Positions 2,423-9,681 of a DNA stretch of 9,681 bases are shown here, one piece after another. The first letter of the stretch is position 1. Each line of letters starts with the position of its first letter. The stretch comes from a bacterium (GTDB lineage: Bacteria; Bacillota_I; Bacilli_A; Mycoplasmatales; Mycoplasmoidaceae): contig JAFPYV010000031.1 of assembly GCA_017394375.1 (NCBI GenBank), positions 1 through 9,681 of the forward strand, in the 5' to 3' direction. A program made the position numbers and the translations under genes. Under the pieces are notes generated by a model. It made no database searches, was not told where the DNA came from, and worked only from the letters and a program-made list of their open reading frames with translations.

Positions 2423-2466
2423 TATTTTCATTAAGGATGATGCAATCATTAATAAAGGAGAAATAA

Positions 2467-2937
2467 ATGGAATGAGATGAATTACCAATTGCAACCATTG
2501 AAGATGCAATTGGTTATAGTTTTTTAGATAAAGACTTGCTTAAGCAAGCTTTTACAACAGTAAGATATTGGTACAAGAAAACTGGTTATGAACAAGATTT
2601 ACCTAATTACATTGGTAACGCAATTATTTTTGATGAAATAGATAACTTAGTAAAAACAGGACAATTAACTAAACAATCCCAAATAAATTTTCACCAAAAA
2701 TTTTACGCAAAATGGTATGAACTAATGGTTGGTTTAGGATTTGATCAATACCAAATTAAATTATTTTCTGATCCTGATCAAGAAAATGAAAATCAACAAT
2801 ATTTTGATGTAGCAAACATTTTTCCATTGCTTATTTGTGCAATTTACTTTGATCAAAAAAGAAAATGCACTAATGAAGTTAAACATGCCGTTGATAAGAT
2901 TTTAGGAATGAAAGGAGCAACAAACTATCATGCTTAA
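2467..2937 (+). CDS. Catalytically dead RNase III-like protein A
   Basis: A 156-aa protein with an RNase III fold signature but no dsRNA-binding domain. IEDAIGYSFLDKDLLKQAFT (11-30) matches the family opening (IGYxFxDKxLLxxALTH). Residues 46-54 PNYIGNAII align with the catalytic LEFLGDAVL, and NIFPLLICAIYFDQ (117-130) with DxFEALIGAIYLDQG. The four metal ligands of RNase III (E, D, D, E) are replaced by Asn47, Asn51, Asn117 and Pro120, so cleavage by the known mechanism is not expected. The start at ATG 2467 has AAAGGAG six bases upstream; residue 3 is a TGA tryptophan. Its stop overlaps the next gene by 8 nt, so the two are probably translated together and may form a dimer. Function unknown: ribosome assembly, RNA binding or RNA protection are possibilities. 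Confidence 0.65.
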
Positions 2938-4111
2938 AGGTAATGAAAATATAAATAAGGTTGAAAACATTATTTGCTACACCTTTAAGAATAAGGAACC
3001 ATTAATTAAATTATTTAACCAAACCATTCCTTATTCCCAACAAGCAATTAATAATGGAGAACAACTATTTGTCAATTTAATGAAAAAATTAATTGCAAAA
3101 GATCAAAAAATTAATCCCGAATGAAAAAATGATTATTTATTTGATGCACTTGATGACTATCAAAAACCACGTTTTTGACAAAAACAATTAACCAAATTAA
3201 CTTTAAATCAATACCGTGATTTTAACAATGAAGAAGCTAGAGATTTTGTTTATTGTTTATTAGATGCAATCAGCAAAGATAGTAATTGAAACGAATCATA
3301 CTTAATCCATACCTTTGATAAATTACTTTATTATAATTACTTAATGCACAATCCAATTTTAGATGCTGATTTAAACTGAGATTATTTATTTGGAATGCAC
3401 CAAAATGCTAGTTTAATGATGGAAATTGACTGCAATCGTTTTATTACTTATTCTCATCAAAATATGCAAGAATTATGAGCATATTTGTATTATTGTTATC
3501 AAGATTTATTTAATAAGTATTATGACGATAATGACGAAATAAAAAATGTTTGAAAAACTATTGATCTTGATAAAGATTATGTTAAACAATTTGATCAAAT
3601 TTGCCAAGTCCACCATTTTTATACTGGAACTTGTTTTTTGCATGACAAATATTATTGGTACTGTTTAATGTTTGTTGGCAAATTCAAATATTGCTTTACT
3701 AGTAAAAATGAAAAGAAGGATGATGCTAAAAACCAAGCAATTAAAGAATTTATTCGCTATTATCAACAAGATCAAATCAAAGAACCATTGCCAATAGACC
3801 CAGTATGTAAAGATTTAAACACGCAATTATACATAATTCAAAGTCGATTAGGAATACCTAATTTTGGTGATGATGATAATTACAAAAAAATTGATTGAGC
3901 AACTGCTAAGAAAACTAATTTAATTCATAAGCTAAACAAAGCAAATTTATTTAATTTAGTAATTTATCATTTTAATAATAAACAATCAAACTGTACTTTA
4001 TTAGTCAATGGATGTGCTCAAGCATTTAGTGCAAATGGAATGGGTGAAACTAATTCATTAGCAAATGCAAATCAATTATTAATTGATTATTATTTAGCAA
4101 CCAAACATTAA
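2930..4111 (+). CDS. RNase III-like protein B with two dsRBD-like segments
   Basis: A 393-aa protein read through several TGA codons (first at 3122). Residues 11-28 (VENIICYTFKNKEPLIKL) repeat the RNase III opening seen in protein A. EARDFVYCLLDAI (102-114) aligns with the second catalytic block, keeping Asp105 but with Tyr108 in place of the essential Glu. The first block is degraded to EQLFVNLM (44-51). After a helical region without a match (about 135-225), residues 227-280 resemble a dsRNA-binding domain: an aromatic strand region, then KKDDAKNQAIKEFI, like the KKxAKxxAAxxAL helix. Residues 337-390 resemble a second one (LLVNGCAQAFSANGMGETNS...ANANQLLIDYYL) that lacks the basic KK pair. 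AAAGGAG lies 12 nt before the ATG, inside gene A. Likely a partner of protein A; enzymatic activity is doubtful. Confidence 0.6.
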
Positions 4112-4132
4112 TTATTATTAGAAAACATAAAT

Positions 4133-4166
4133 AAAAATATGAGAGGATAAAATCTCATATTTTTTT
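4133..4166. terminator. Bidirectional terminator between convergent genes
   Basis: AAAAATATGAGA (4133-4144) pairs perfectly with TCTCATATTTTT (4153-4164) around the loop GGATAAAA. The T-run on the plus side ends the RNase III-like operon; on the minus strand a TTTTTATTT tail ends the large surface-protein gene. Confidence 0.85.
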
Positions 4167-4189
4167 GTTATCTAAAAAAATTAATAAAC

Positions 4190-7100
4190 TTAATATTGAC
4201 TAACACCCATGGATTCAAAGTTGTAAGATCAACCACCACTAGTAATAGTTGGATTATGATTAATACTATTGTTTGGATTAGCTGCTCAATTAAATAATCA
4301 TGTTAATGCATTGGCATAACCAAAGTCATAATCTTGCACATTCATACCAGGGGGAACATCATAATATCTTCCCATGTCATTAAGTGCTTGTCATTCACAT
4401 CCTTTGAAGTAAGAGAAGTAATTATCATATTCATAATTATGATAGGTTAAAGTACCATAAGTATCATAATATTGACCAGTACCTTCATCAGGTCACATTA
4501 CCCCAATTATCCGACATGAATCACGGTTAGTAGTAAAGTAATTTTGTTCTCCCCCAATTTGGTTATCATACATCCATTGTTCTCATAATGGATCCATGCT
4601 AATTCATTCTTGGTATTGTGGTATTCAAACTTGACATCAAATGTGGTAACTGCTTTCTACTGCAGCTCCAGTATTTAAAGAACTATCAGTTGCCCGTGGT
4701 CAGTAATTACCTAATACTGGCCGGGAAACAAAACCAAGTAATTTTAATAAGGTACAAGTTAAGTCAGTGTAATTACCACATACCCCTTCTTGTGTTTCAA
4801 ATAATTGCCGTTCAGTGTATTGATAACGAGATTCGAGTTCCCCTAAATCTTCCATATTAGTCATCACTCAGTTTTCGACTGCAATTACTTTATTGATTTG
4901 GTTGGAATATGCTTGAGCAATTTCATTAGAAACTTGCACCATGGTTTGATCCGGATTATACCAGTTAATTGAGTTTTCACCATTCATTCACCAACCAGTT
5001 GGAGATTCATCAGCTCAACCATAAGTAGCAGTTCATTGGACATAGTTAGTAGAATTTTCTTCTTCGGTGTGTGCATAGAATCTAGTATCAGAGGCATTTT
5101 TACTAGTTAAGGGAACAATATTAGTTTCATTAATGACAAATGGGTAAGTATCATCAGCAGTTTGATCATTATAACTATTTGCCCCAGTAACATATCCATA
5201 GTTATAAACTTGGTTATTAGAGAAAAAGTTATTTACTCCCGCATTACTACCCCAAAAAGCAATTTTTTCACCTGGGACATATGGAATATTGCTAAATCAA
5301 TTTTGGACATCAATTAAAGTGGTATTTGAATTAATTGTTAATGGTTTTACAGTAATAAAGGAAGAACTAGTTGGTTCTTCATAACTAATATCAATTATTG
5401 AAGTATCTTTAGTATTTTGATTCGAAGTTTTAGGAAATTGCCCATTATTAGTATTACTATAATATAACCCAAAACCAGTTGCATATGCAGGTCAATAGTT
5501 TTTAATTTGGTTAGTAAATGCTAACTTACCAGTAATCCCATTAGCAAGAATGTTACCATCAATCGTGTCTCATCCATCATCAAAATAAATTCCAATAAAA
5601 CTTTCTTTTGGATTATTTCCTTGAATATGAGTAGTAAATGGTAATGGCAAAATAACTGATGAGGTTGCAGTAGTTGAACCAACTGGCATTAAAGTTAAAC
5701 TATTTGCACTCGTATAGGTTTTTGCAACATTAGTTAAAGTACTATCAATTGACCCTGCATCAGTACTTTCAATAGTACCAATAGTGTTCCCATTTACTTG
5801 GACATCAAACTTAATGTTTGGCAAACTGTTACCACTTAAACTTAATGTTCCATTAGTTGGATCATAAGCAACATTGCTCAAAGTTGTAACACTTAAGGTG
5901 CTATACAATCCTTGGGGTTTGATGGCTAAATTAGTGTCCAATCCGTTTCAAGAAGTTCATGATGTATAAAGATCCATGTAAGTATTTAAACCATTGCCAT
6001 TACTAGTTTGATAATTAGTATCACCATTATTTTCGTCAGCTTGTCAGGTGCTATAGTTGAAATTGGAAGCAATGTTAACATTTCAACTTTCTTTTGATTG
6101 AGTAGCAATGATGGAACCATTAGTACCTCATGATGTAGCATAGATACTTAATATGTCCCCGGGTTGACAATTATATTGATATATATATGTATTGTTATTG
6201 TAATCATTAGCATTTAAATAATAACTTTCACCAGAAATGTTGTCATTAATAATGTATTTCCCCGTAAATGGATCATACAAAGAAATATGTAATGTAGCAT
6301 TTGGGTTAGTACCTAAGATAGTTTCACCCCCATTGGTATTAATATCAAATTTAGTACCATTATCTTGAAAGTAAAATAATCACCCATCTTCAGCTCCTGA
6401 AAATTGGTTATTAGCATCCCCAATCGTTCCTTGACTACCATCTTGTTGTTGGTTGGCAATCGTTTCACTTTGAATTCCATATAAGGTATAAATACAAAAA
6501 TTATCAATGGTAGTATCACTAGTAGTCATGACATTTTGGATGGTATTAAAACTATCCATTTGGTTTGTATAACCTTTACTAGTAGATGGAGCAACACTAG
6601 TGTTAAAGTGTCATCCATTTTGCGTAGTATTAACTGGTTGAATAGTATATTTATCAGTTACACCAATTTGTCCTACAGTTTGTTGGGGATCTGTAGCTGG
6701 TGAAAATTGACTAGAGGTACTTGGAGTGTAAGGAGCATATGGAACGTTTAACGTAGTAGTAGCATTTTTAGTAGAACTACCAATCCCTACTGAAGAAGTT
6801 AAATCATAACTAGTAATTACCCATGCATATTGATCAGGTTGAAATTCATAAACCGCTGTGCCTTGAATGACAAATTGAATGCCGTTAGTTAACTTACCTA
6901 AATCATCTTTGCATCCAAATGGACATTCTAGTCAATTCGTATTTCAAGTTGCATTAAGTGGAACATGTACTGCATATGCATGAGGAAAAGGATTAGAAAT
7001 AAATGCTTTATTACCAATGCTAGTTAAACTAGATGGAAAAGTTAAACTGGTTAAATTATTATTAGCAAATGCTAATGACCCAATGGTCAATAATCCTTGG

Positions 7101-7654
7101 TTAAAAGTAACACTCGTTAAATTTTGACCATAGAACGCTCCACTAGCAATACTAGTTACAGCATAAAAATTATTCCCGTTAATGACCGTAGCAGGAATCA
7201 CAATGTTAGTAGGATTATTTTTAGAACCTACAGGAAAACCTAATAACGTACAAGTTGCTGAAGAAGTAGGTAAATAACTAAACGTATAACTAGTTGAACT
7301 ACCATTTACATTTGTAGTAAATGTGTAATTAAAGGATGAATAATTAACTTGGCTAGGAAATAATGCACTAGGTGTGGTATTAGTTTTAGCAGCACTAGTT
7401 GCATTCATGACTGCAATTTTTCCATTTGGAGTTCTTCGAGTTACATTCCCATTTGCCCTATTTTTAATTATTGTTGCTGAAGACATAGAATTGGGATTGT
7501 TAGTTACTGAGGAAACTTCATTGGTATTACTAATAGGATTAGTGCTTTGCTTTTGATTAATTGAAGTGCATACTGCCCCACTTACAACTGCAGTTGCAAT
7601 TGCTAATGCTCCAAAAACACTTAAACCAATTACTCATTTTTTCTTTTTTTGCAT
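4190..7654 (-). CDS. Large surface protein: BspA-type LRR plus transglutaminase-like domain
   Basis: An intact 1154-aa protein with many TGA tryptophans and no frame break. MQKKKKW and a hydrophobic segment (7-28) ending at SGAVC29 form an export signal or anchor; the lipobox is poor (Val before Cys). Residues 147-221 are about three BspA-type leucine-rich repeats (VTSIASGAFYG, LLTIGSLAFANN, LTSIGNKAFISN). Residues 230-880 are Asn/Ser/Thr/Tyr-rich, probably beta-rich, with no family recognised. The C-terminus is a transglutaminase-like (papain-fold) domain: EGVCGNYTDL with Cys959, SSYHIWCQVWI with His1004, ISMDPLWE with Asp1021, the Cys-His-Asp triad. It likely acts outside the cell on host or own proteins, as a protease, transglutaminase or adhesin. 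AAAGGAG lies 8 nt before the start, with a promoter upstream. Two decayed relatives lie in the window. Confidence 0.8.
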
Positions 7655-7674
7655 TTTGATAACTCCTTTCATTT

Positions 7675-7761: not shown

Positions 7762-8670
7762 TTAGGCTTGCATTTTACACATAATATATGAATTTATACT
7801 ATTAATGCTGTTAGTTGGATTGGCAACTTTATTTAATAATAAAGCAATTCTTGAGCAAAACTGCATTGATAACCATTTGGTAACATTCCAACAGCGGTGT
7901 TAAAGTGCCTTCCTAAATTATAAAGTGCATCATATTCACAACCTTTAAAGTACAGAAGTAATTATCATATTCGTAATTGTGATATGCAAGTGCACCATAA
8001 GAATCGTAATAAAGACCAGTTCCTTTTTCTGATTATTCAATTAAAATGATGCTAAAGTGTTTACAGTCCACGTTAAATTGAAGTTGGATAGTCAATTGCA
8101 CCATCCATGCCTCAGGTTGGGTCAATGGTGATTTATTCTTGAATACTTGGCATTTAAACTTGTAATCATTGGTGGTTCAATCCATAAATTATACTCACAA
8201 TTCCACTGATTGGTGAATATCCACCTAGTGTACCCCAATAATTTATCGGGAAACAAAACCTGCTAGTTTCATCATGGCACCACAAATAGCAGCAAAGTCT
8301 CAGCATCCACCTTGTAAGTGTTGGCAATATTCACACATGGTGTGACCATACATGTATTGCGTGGTGTAATCCATATTATCACATACTCATCAAATACTGC
8401 AACCATTCTATTTAATGGGTTAGCATATCATTGCACAATTTGGTTAGCAACTTTGACTATGATTTGTTTGGATCAAACCAGTTATCACAGTTGTATTCAT
8501 TAGTTCATCAGTCTAATTGGTTACATTGCATTCATCCATATGCAGCATTTCATACTCTACTATTAGCACTGTTATCTTCACCATTGTTATAGTTATTTAG
8601 GTAAGAATCTTCATAATATTGATGTTCCATGGAAGTAATACCAGTATTATTAATTAAAAAACCAGTCATG
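7762..8670 (-). pseudogene. Broken paralogue of the transglutaminase-like surface protein
   Basis: The minus strand carries, in changing frames, a recognisable copy of the C-terminal third of the neighbouring intact protein. In order one reads GFLINNTGITS, VWNAAYGW, QIVQWYANPLNRMVAV, LQGGCWDFAA...MMKLAGFVSR, ITIDPTWGMD, YGALAYHNYEYDNYF and FKGCEYDALYNLGRHF. The triad positions survive: Cys codon at 8305-8303, His at 8174-8172, Asp at 8123-8121. There are several frameshifts, and in-frame TAA stops at 8156-8154 and 8135-8133 stand exactly where the intact protein has tryptophans. The upstream part is missing because the copy stops at the insertion sequence at about 8671; the remainder may lie beyond that element, outside the window. 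It ends 107 nt before the intact gene starts, in tandem with it. Confidence 0.85.
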
Positions 8671-8700: not shown

Positions 8701-8733
8701 TTCTTTCAAGAAAGGAAGGATTATTGTTTTTTT
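8694..8733 (+). terminator. 14-bp hairpin with T-run in front of orfA, enclosing its ribosome binding site
   Basis: Bases 8694-8707 pair without a break with 8714-8727 (two G-T wobbles) around the loop AAGAAA, and the T-run reaches 8733, one base before the ATG at 8734. It has the form of a rho-independent terminator. The only purine-rich Shine-Dalgarno candidate, AGGAAGG (8713-8719), is in the 3' arm and would be hidden in transcripts coming from outside. Confidence 0.65.
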
Positions 8734-9681
8734 ATGTCTAAACAATTAAAACCAAATCAATGGTTAAAATTATTCAATATTTATGAAACACAAGGTATTC
8801 ATGCTTTGTGATTAAAATATGGAGCATATCGAAAAATAAACAAAAATAGCAAATATTTATTTTTCAAAAAGTATAAGAAATTTTTGTACCATAATAGAGA
8901 TATGAAGACATTAATATCTATGACTGGTAAGGAATCTAAAAAAGGTACCAAATCTGGTCGTCCTAAAAACTCTAAAAATAAAATTAAAATTTGGAAAGAA
9001 TTTATAGACAAAATTGGCAAGGACGAAGTAGCAAATATTTTTAAAAAATTGTTGATGATGGAGATGAAGATTTAATTGATGCAATTAAGGAAATTATCAA
9101 GAAGAAAACAAAATTATCTTCACGAAAAATGGACAGCATTTTAGGTTTTTTCGAAGTCTTACATTTGTAATCTTCGAAATTCAAAAGAAAAGCCAATTAA
9201 TAAGTAGAAGTCACATAAAGAAAAGCTAGCGAATATGATTTATGACATCTTAGCAAAATATTATTTTTGCGTTGGTCGGGAACCAATTGCCCAAATAATG
9301 CTTACAAAGTATGAATTTTCATTTCTGGACGCCAAATTGACAGAATCATGCATGAAAATCATTTGGCTTGTGAAATTAAAGTATCACGTAAATTCCAGAA
9401 AGAAAAGACACCACTGCAATGATTCCAGATCTAGTAAAAAGAGATTACGATAATAAAAATCATAAATAAATTGTTCGTGCTACTGATGTTACATACATTT
9501 GTTCACTTTGCGACGCACCACAAATTTTGTTTACCTTTCAGTAGTAATTAATCATCGTACTAAGGAAATTGAATCATGAGAATTATCAAATGTACAATGA
9601 TGCAAAATTAATCATAGATTCATTTGCTGCTATTAAGCATAAACTTGCTGGATCGATTGTTCATACTGGCCAAGGTGCAGA
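8734..9681 (+). pseudogene. IS3-family transposase (orfA-orfB), degenerate
   Basis: From ATG 8734 an orfA-like protein reads MSKQLKPNQWLKLFNIYE (a helix-turn-helix type start), then GTKSGRPKNSKNKIKIW, and ends at 9075. The continuation DDGDEDLIDAIKEI follows in the -1 frame after TTTTTAAAAAA (9038-9048), then LSSRKMDSILGF. After an indel in the T-run at 9146-9151 comes EKPINK, a TAG, and HKEKLANMIYDILAKYYFCVGREPI, the orfB HTH_21 region. Further shifts give SGRQIDRIMHENHLACEIKV and the integrase core start ATDVTYI (first catalytic Asp). Near the window end MYNDAKLIIDSFAAIKHKL leads to IVHTGQGA, where the usual second Asp (HSDQG/HTDQG) is Gly. With several shifts, stops and a lost catalytic residue this copy cannot be active. 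Confidence 0.8.

Follow-up and report, generated by a model that had tools for sequence, protein, structure and literature searches.

The mitochondrial ribosome contains mL44 and mL57, two paired RNase III-fold proteins, and non-catalytic RNase III proteins are already known from mitochondria, chloroplasts and the editing complexes of trypanosomes. According to passages of one report, homologues of Mrpl44 were not found in bacteria (PMC4519308). The trypanosome proteins KREPB4-KREPB10 have RNase III-like domains without catalytic residues, and KREPB4 is described as essential for editing in the relevant parts of two papers (PMC9508840, PMC11033214). Maize chloroplast RNC1 has two catalytically inactive RNase III domains, and Mini-III (MrnC) catalyzes 23S rRNA maturation, both as stated in a section of PMC8708148. 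A search of open-access papers returned no bacterial non-catalytic RNase III pair.

The locus analyzed here consists of two overlapping genes, A and B, which resemble each of these systems in part. Like bacterial RNase III (rnc of E. coli, A. aeolicus and mollicute orthologues), both proteins appear to have the fold and B adds a likely dsRBD. Unlike it, they are two different chains, neither with a complete carboxylate set, and the gene neighbors differ: rnc lies after plsX and before an AAA family ATPase gene in M. cynos and between plsX and smc in M. hyorhinis. The first-pass annotation had compared the pair with mL57 and mL44, and this likeness holds as one of architecture, with the fold alone beside the fold plus a dsRBD, the latter being likely. 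However, A and B are bacterial and the structural match to mL44/mL57 was no better than that to active RNase III; mitoribosomal chains were also absent from the 31 PDB sequence matches of the A family profile (A1) and the 2 of profile A2. A and B share the missing catalytic residues with the KREPB proteins, which unlike B have a zinc finger in place of the dsRBD; KREPB6-B8 differ further in that their partners are catalytic, while no full site was seen in A or in B. RNC1 is likewise inactive, but both of its domains lie in one protein of a plant organelle instead of two ORFs. Mini-III resembles A as an RNase III domain without a dsRBD, and its description as a catalyst sets it apart from A, which is without the carboxylates.

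The window, that is the whole stretch of DNA analyzed, comprises 9,681 bases with a GC content of 29.8% and reads in genetic code 4, the code of most mollicutes. An Rfam scan of the window detected nothing beyond the tRNA. The features were as follows.

In the window: tRNA-Arg(CCT) and tRNA-Ser(CGA)
652-2001: family-2 glycosyltransferase gene, one flank of genes A and B
2454..2460, plus strand: Shine-Dalgarno-like AAAGGAG before gene A, read directly
2467..2937, plus strand: gene A, encoding a 156-aa stand-alone RNase III-fold protein without the active-site carboxylates
2911..2917, plus strand: Shine-Dalgarno-like AAAGGAG before gene B, within gene A, read directly
2930..4111, plus strand: gene B, encoding a 393-aa protein with a predicted RNase III-fold domain, followed by a likely dsRBD and a C-terminal region to which no fold was assigned
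2930..3358, plus strand: residues 1-143 of B, predicted RNase III-fold domain with an incomplete active site
3578..3763, plus strand: residues 217-278 of B, dsRBD-like a-b-b-b-a segment from the model and a joint structural alignment
3908..4099, plus strand: residues 327-390 of B, proposed earlier as a second dsRBD-like segment, not confirmed
4134..4163, plus strand: probable intrinsic terminator, hairpin and T-run, from the fold of 4112-4172
4190-7672, minus strand: gene whose 1,160-aa product has a BspA-type leucine-rich repeat region and a transglutaminase core

ORF calling in code 4 placed genes A and B on the same strand with an overlap of 8 bases, and TGA is read as Trp once in gene A and seven times in gene B. 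Both open frames and both clean ribosome binding sites described previously were recovered. The GC contents at the three codon positions were 44/26/16% in A and 36/23/17% in B, and 42/25/21% in the adjoining glycosyltransferase gene; genes A and B thus show the codon-position bias of coding DNA. A terminator shared by the two genes had also been proposed. The hairpin and T-run 3' of gene B are in favor of it, since the fold of 4112-4172 reached -11.9 kcal/mol (z -3.55) and 0 of 200 shuffles were as good. However, the hairpin was absent from the output of a consensus terminator scan, which requires three G-C pairs; by reading, the stem has only two.

Protein A resembled RNase III in a phmmer search of PDB sequences (E 4e-4), and the A family profile matched RNase III in the PDB with an E of 1.2e-5. 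Profile-profile comparison by hhalign gave an E of 2.3e-12, and none of 40 column shuffles was as good; the control as a whole comprised eight profile pairs with 40 column shuffles each. By these comparisons, the resemblance of A to RNase III is real. No match to A was detected in Pfam or NCBIfam, and a scan of nine A members against these libraries gave no RNase III or dsRBD family among those listed. The predicted model of A was of moderate confidence (pLDDT 62), and Foldseek matched nothing to it at an E of 0.001 or below, the best E being 0.012. Protein A has no residues left to hold a dsRBD. All 15 family members are net acidic (-1 to -11), as are half of the 10 reference RNase IIIs, and this acidity hints, at most, at A being a pairing subunit rather than an RNA binder. 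The position of E. coli Phe42, which we take to be a dimer contact, is aromatic in 15 of 15 A proteins (Y in 14, F in 1).

The loss of four metal-binding carboxylates in A had been read correctly, as Asn47, Asn51, Asn117 and Pro120 occupy the positions of E. coli RNase III E41, D45, D114 and E117. All 35 canonical RNase IIIs in the alignment had Glu, Asp and Glu at E41, D45 and E117. Among the 15 A proteins these positions were N/P/Y, N/K and P/S, respectively, and acidic in none, so the residues of an active enzyme were found in 0 of 15. The fourth position is different: it was D in 9 and N in 26 of the canonical proteins, a share that may be biased because 25 of the 35 were matches from a search with A (the other 10 being references), and N in 9, S in 4, T in 1 and D in 1 of the A proteins. 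Asn117 alone is therefore ordinary, and three losses are diagnostic in A, not four. The two mollicute rnc genes that were compared have all four carboxylates. An earlier active-site alignment had covered 7 of the 15 A proteins, 10 of the 25 RNase III matches and 3 of the 10 references. A Metamycoplasma orale RNase III-family protein was excluded from the reference set; this record (L005:99-590) is annotated as a 163-aa protein, apparently without a dsRBD, and by eye its catalytic residues are kept.

That both proteins open with an RNase III segment was borne out for A by sequence and for B by its structural model, B having a weak profile signal and no sequence match. The RNase III region of B had no match in Pfam, NCBIfam or PDB sequences, and eight B members scanned against Pfam and NCBIfam gave no RNase III or dsRBD family among those listed. 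Against sequences of solved structures, B matched NLRP3 only, and weakly (E about 0.1-0.2). Direct hhalign of the A and B family profiles gave a weak alignment, and the whole B profile failed against RNase III (E 0.089); a signal, weak but beating 40 of 40 shuffles, appeared only after cutting B to residues 1-143 and adding RNase III rows. This signal and the predicted structure are the basis for the RNase III fold of B. In the structure comparison, in which the absence of a family from a list is not informative, active RNase III and Dicer matched the B model as well as mitoribosomal chains did. Among viral structures none matched B at 0.001 or better, the best two being Pithovirus RNase III (E 9.2e-3 and 1.2e-2). 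Membership in the RNase III superfamily is thus indicated for A by homology and for B by the model and weakly by the profile, and an RNase III fold is supported for A by sequence and for B by model.

The alignment of B to the active-site helices is uncertain. By hhalign, Tyr108 stands at E117, Asp117 at D126 and Asp105 beside D114 across a gap, while the stretch FVYCLLDAISKD aligned with the helix after D114. All eight B proteins have Tyr108, and seven of them have Asp105. MAFFT instead placed residues 124-132 at the second site, with Asp130 of the window protein, which is not conserved, facing E117. At D45 in the first helix, hhalign put Asn49 and MAFFT put Glu44 (E in two of eight, Q in six). 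Under either alignment B had no complete carboxylate set, and as far as the alignments show, a complete active site is missing from A and B alike.

Two dsRBD-like segments had been described in B, of which one is likely. Residues 217-278 were modeled with helices at pLDDT about 70-85 and strands at about 50, the fold and this segment together could be aligned structurally with whole RNase III, and four residues, K262, K263, A266 and K267, do not vary among the 8 B proteins. The segment profile was weak (2 of 40 shuffles as good), and the dsRBD is moderately supported, mainly by the model. The second segment, residues 327-390, did not hold: its pLDDT was below 50, the profile aligned 7 columns with 3 of 40 shuffles as good, and its comparison with the first segment was not significant (5 of 40). 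The profile of residues 140-205 was at chance level against RNase III dsRBDs (12 of 40 shuffles as good). The same residues (window 3347-3544) beat 40 of 40 shuffles against B's own dsRBD segment, over 14 columns only. B is net acidic in 8 of 8 proteins, with a charge of -2 to +4 in the dsRBD stretch 205-283; as read from the sequences, the charge of A, B and this stretch does not suggest a strong RNA binder.

A search for relatives, proposed earlier for the gene pair, yielded 14 for A and 7 for B, so that the families, with the window included, number 15 and 8 proteins. Identity to the window proteins was 43-94% for A and 46-99% for B, and invariant columns are spread across most of the length in both families. 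Both proteins belong to conserved families and therefore look selected rather than decaying, as had been claimed, in agreement with the codon-position bias. For four of the seven B relatives and four of the 14 A relatives the length of the longest contig agreed to the base (5970, 33869, 10927 and 36988); these A and B most likely lie on the same contigs, so that the pair recurs as a unit. No partner was detected for seven relatives on contigs of 7-45 kb (A: P0009, P0010, P0020, P0021 and P0024; B: P0013 and P0014), in a search for B relatives that used one sequence only and is too insensitive to call them unpaired. Six patterns of B were scanned through genomes of 84,980 species, five of them containing Trp (TGA in 7 of 8 cases in B) and so possibly partly blind, and a further scan included the Trp-free pattern GKFKYCF; these scans gave no relative. 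None was found for B in viral contigs and plasmids or for A in viral contigs. A4 drew on seven of the nine A proteins so as to obtain a broader set of words.

Phylogenetic analysis divided the 15 A proteins into a subfamily of 7 and one of 8 (support 100/99), with the placement of P0024 unsure and a long-branch warning for P0024 and P0023. Some genomes may hold both subfamilies. The A and B trees showed no conflict over five pairs, but their branch lengths differ. In two contig pairs identity was 72% for A against 48% for B and 47% for A against 69% for B; A and B differ in rate, and tight co-evolution is therefore not evident. In the B relative P0012 the C-terminus is a short divergent tail, whereas the remaining seven B proteins run on at this point, which suggests a frame change in the source contig.

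By computation, both folds, both incomplete sites and both conserved families are in evidence. For two jointly encoded RNase III domains with incomplete sites, one of them accompanied by a likely dsRBD, the best explanation is a heterodimer that would hold RNA without cutting it, and we give this RNase III-type scaffold or clamp a chance close to even, though short of it. A, with the fold alone, and B, with the fold plus a dsRBD, would be produced jointly from the overlapping genes and dimerize via the RNase III domains; the dsRBD of B, with its conserved lysines, would hold structured or double-stranded RNA, and the A:B dimer might, for example, help to assemble the ribosome or a different RNA particle. 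The role is modeled on the non-catalytic RNase III proteins of organelles, and in E. coli RNase III, RNA binding is reportedly separable from cleavage, going by the title of a study cited in PMC8708148. A narrower version, an obligate bacterial two-gene pseudoenzyme heterodimer serving as a structural RNA clamp, arisen independently of mL44/mL57 in a poorly sampled code-4 mollicute-like lineage, is put forward more tentatively. If true, a conserved bacterial pair would mean that small bacterial genomes, too, can turn a nuclease into an RNA scaffold, and it would provide a compact system of two proteins in which to study what a dead RNase III dimer does.

The main rival, which we consider unlikely, is that A, B or both pair with the active RNase III of the cell, leaving one working site per dimer. 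A keeps the aromatic residue at the presumed dimer position. According to one section of PMC4014445, almost all Mollicutes have RNase III, with M. suis as the sole exception, and mixed catalytic/non-catalytic dimers occur in trypanosomes, where KREPB6-8 are thought to pair with KREN1-3 according to passages of PMC9508840. However, the joint encoding of two incomplete-site proteins suggests that they are each other's partners. Less probable still is a dsRNA-sequestering factor or decoy, with B shielding dsRNA from RNase III or, if the cell is intracellular, from host sensing. The likely dsRBD with its invariant lysines would suit this role, but a decoy would have no need of A, neither N-terminus has a secretion signal when read by eye, PADLOC gave no match for A or B, PHROGs gave one weak match only, of A (E 0.2), and viral contigs held no relative at the sensitivity of the search. 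We regard as improbable a protein that is still a nuclease with a site rebuilt from other acids (for example Asp56 and Glu57 in A; Asp105, Asp112 and Asp117 in B): Asp112 and Asp117 do not vary among the 8 B proteins, and Asp56 and Glu57 are kept in 14 and 13 of the 15 A proteins, respectively, but neither protein shows a complete canonical ligand set, and all 15 A proteins have Pro or Ser in place of E117. Decaying rnc duplicates without function, to which the lost catalytic residues and the decayed surface-protein gene copy and broken ORFs of the downstream flank might point, are strongly disfavored and were rejected on the family-wide conservation, given 15 A and 8 B members with invariant columns over most of their length, the codon-position bias, and the P0012 C-terminus as the only damage seen.

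The 1,160-aa surface-protein gene downstream has 27 TGA codons read as Trp. Positions 7801-8350 (minus strand) hold a decayed partial copy of its transglutaminase end (tblastn E 6.6e-19, three pieces), and tblastn upstream of gene A detected no remnants of this gene. Positions 8701-9679 contain short broken ORFs resembling transposase remnants, presumably IS3-like by eye; five pieces of these were scanned without a Pfam match. Short imperfect repeats link 2313-2359 with 7929-7975 and 2370-2389 with 5051-5070.
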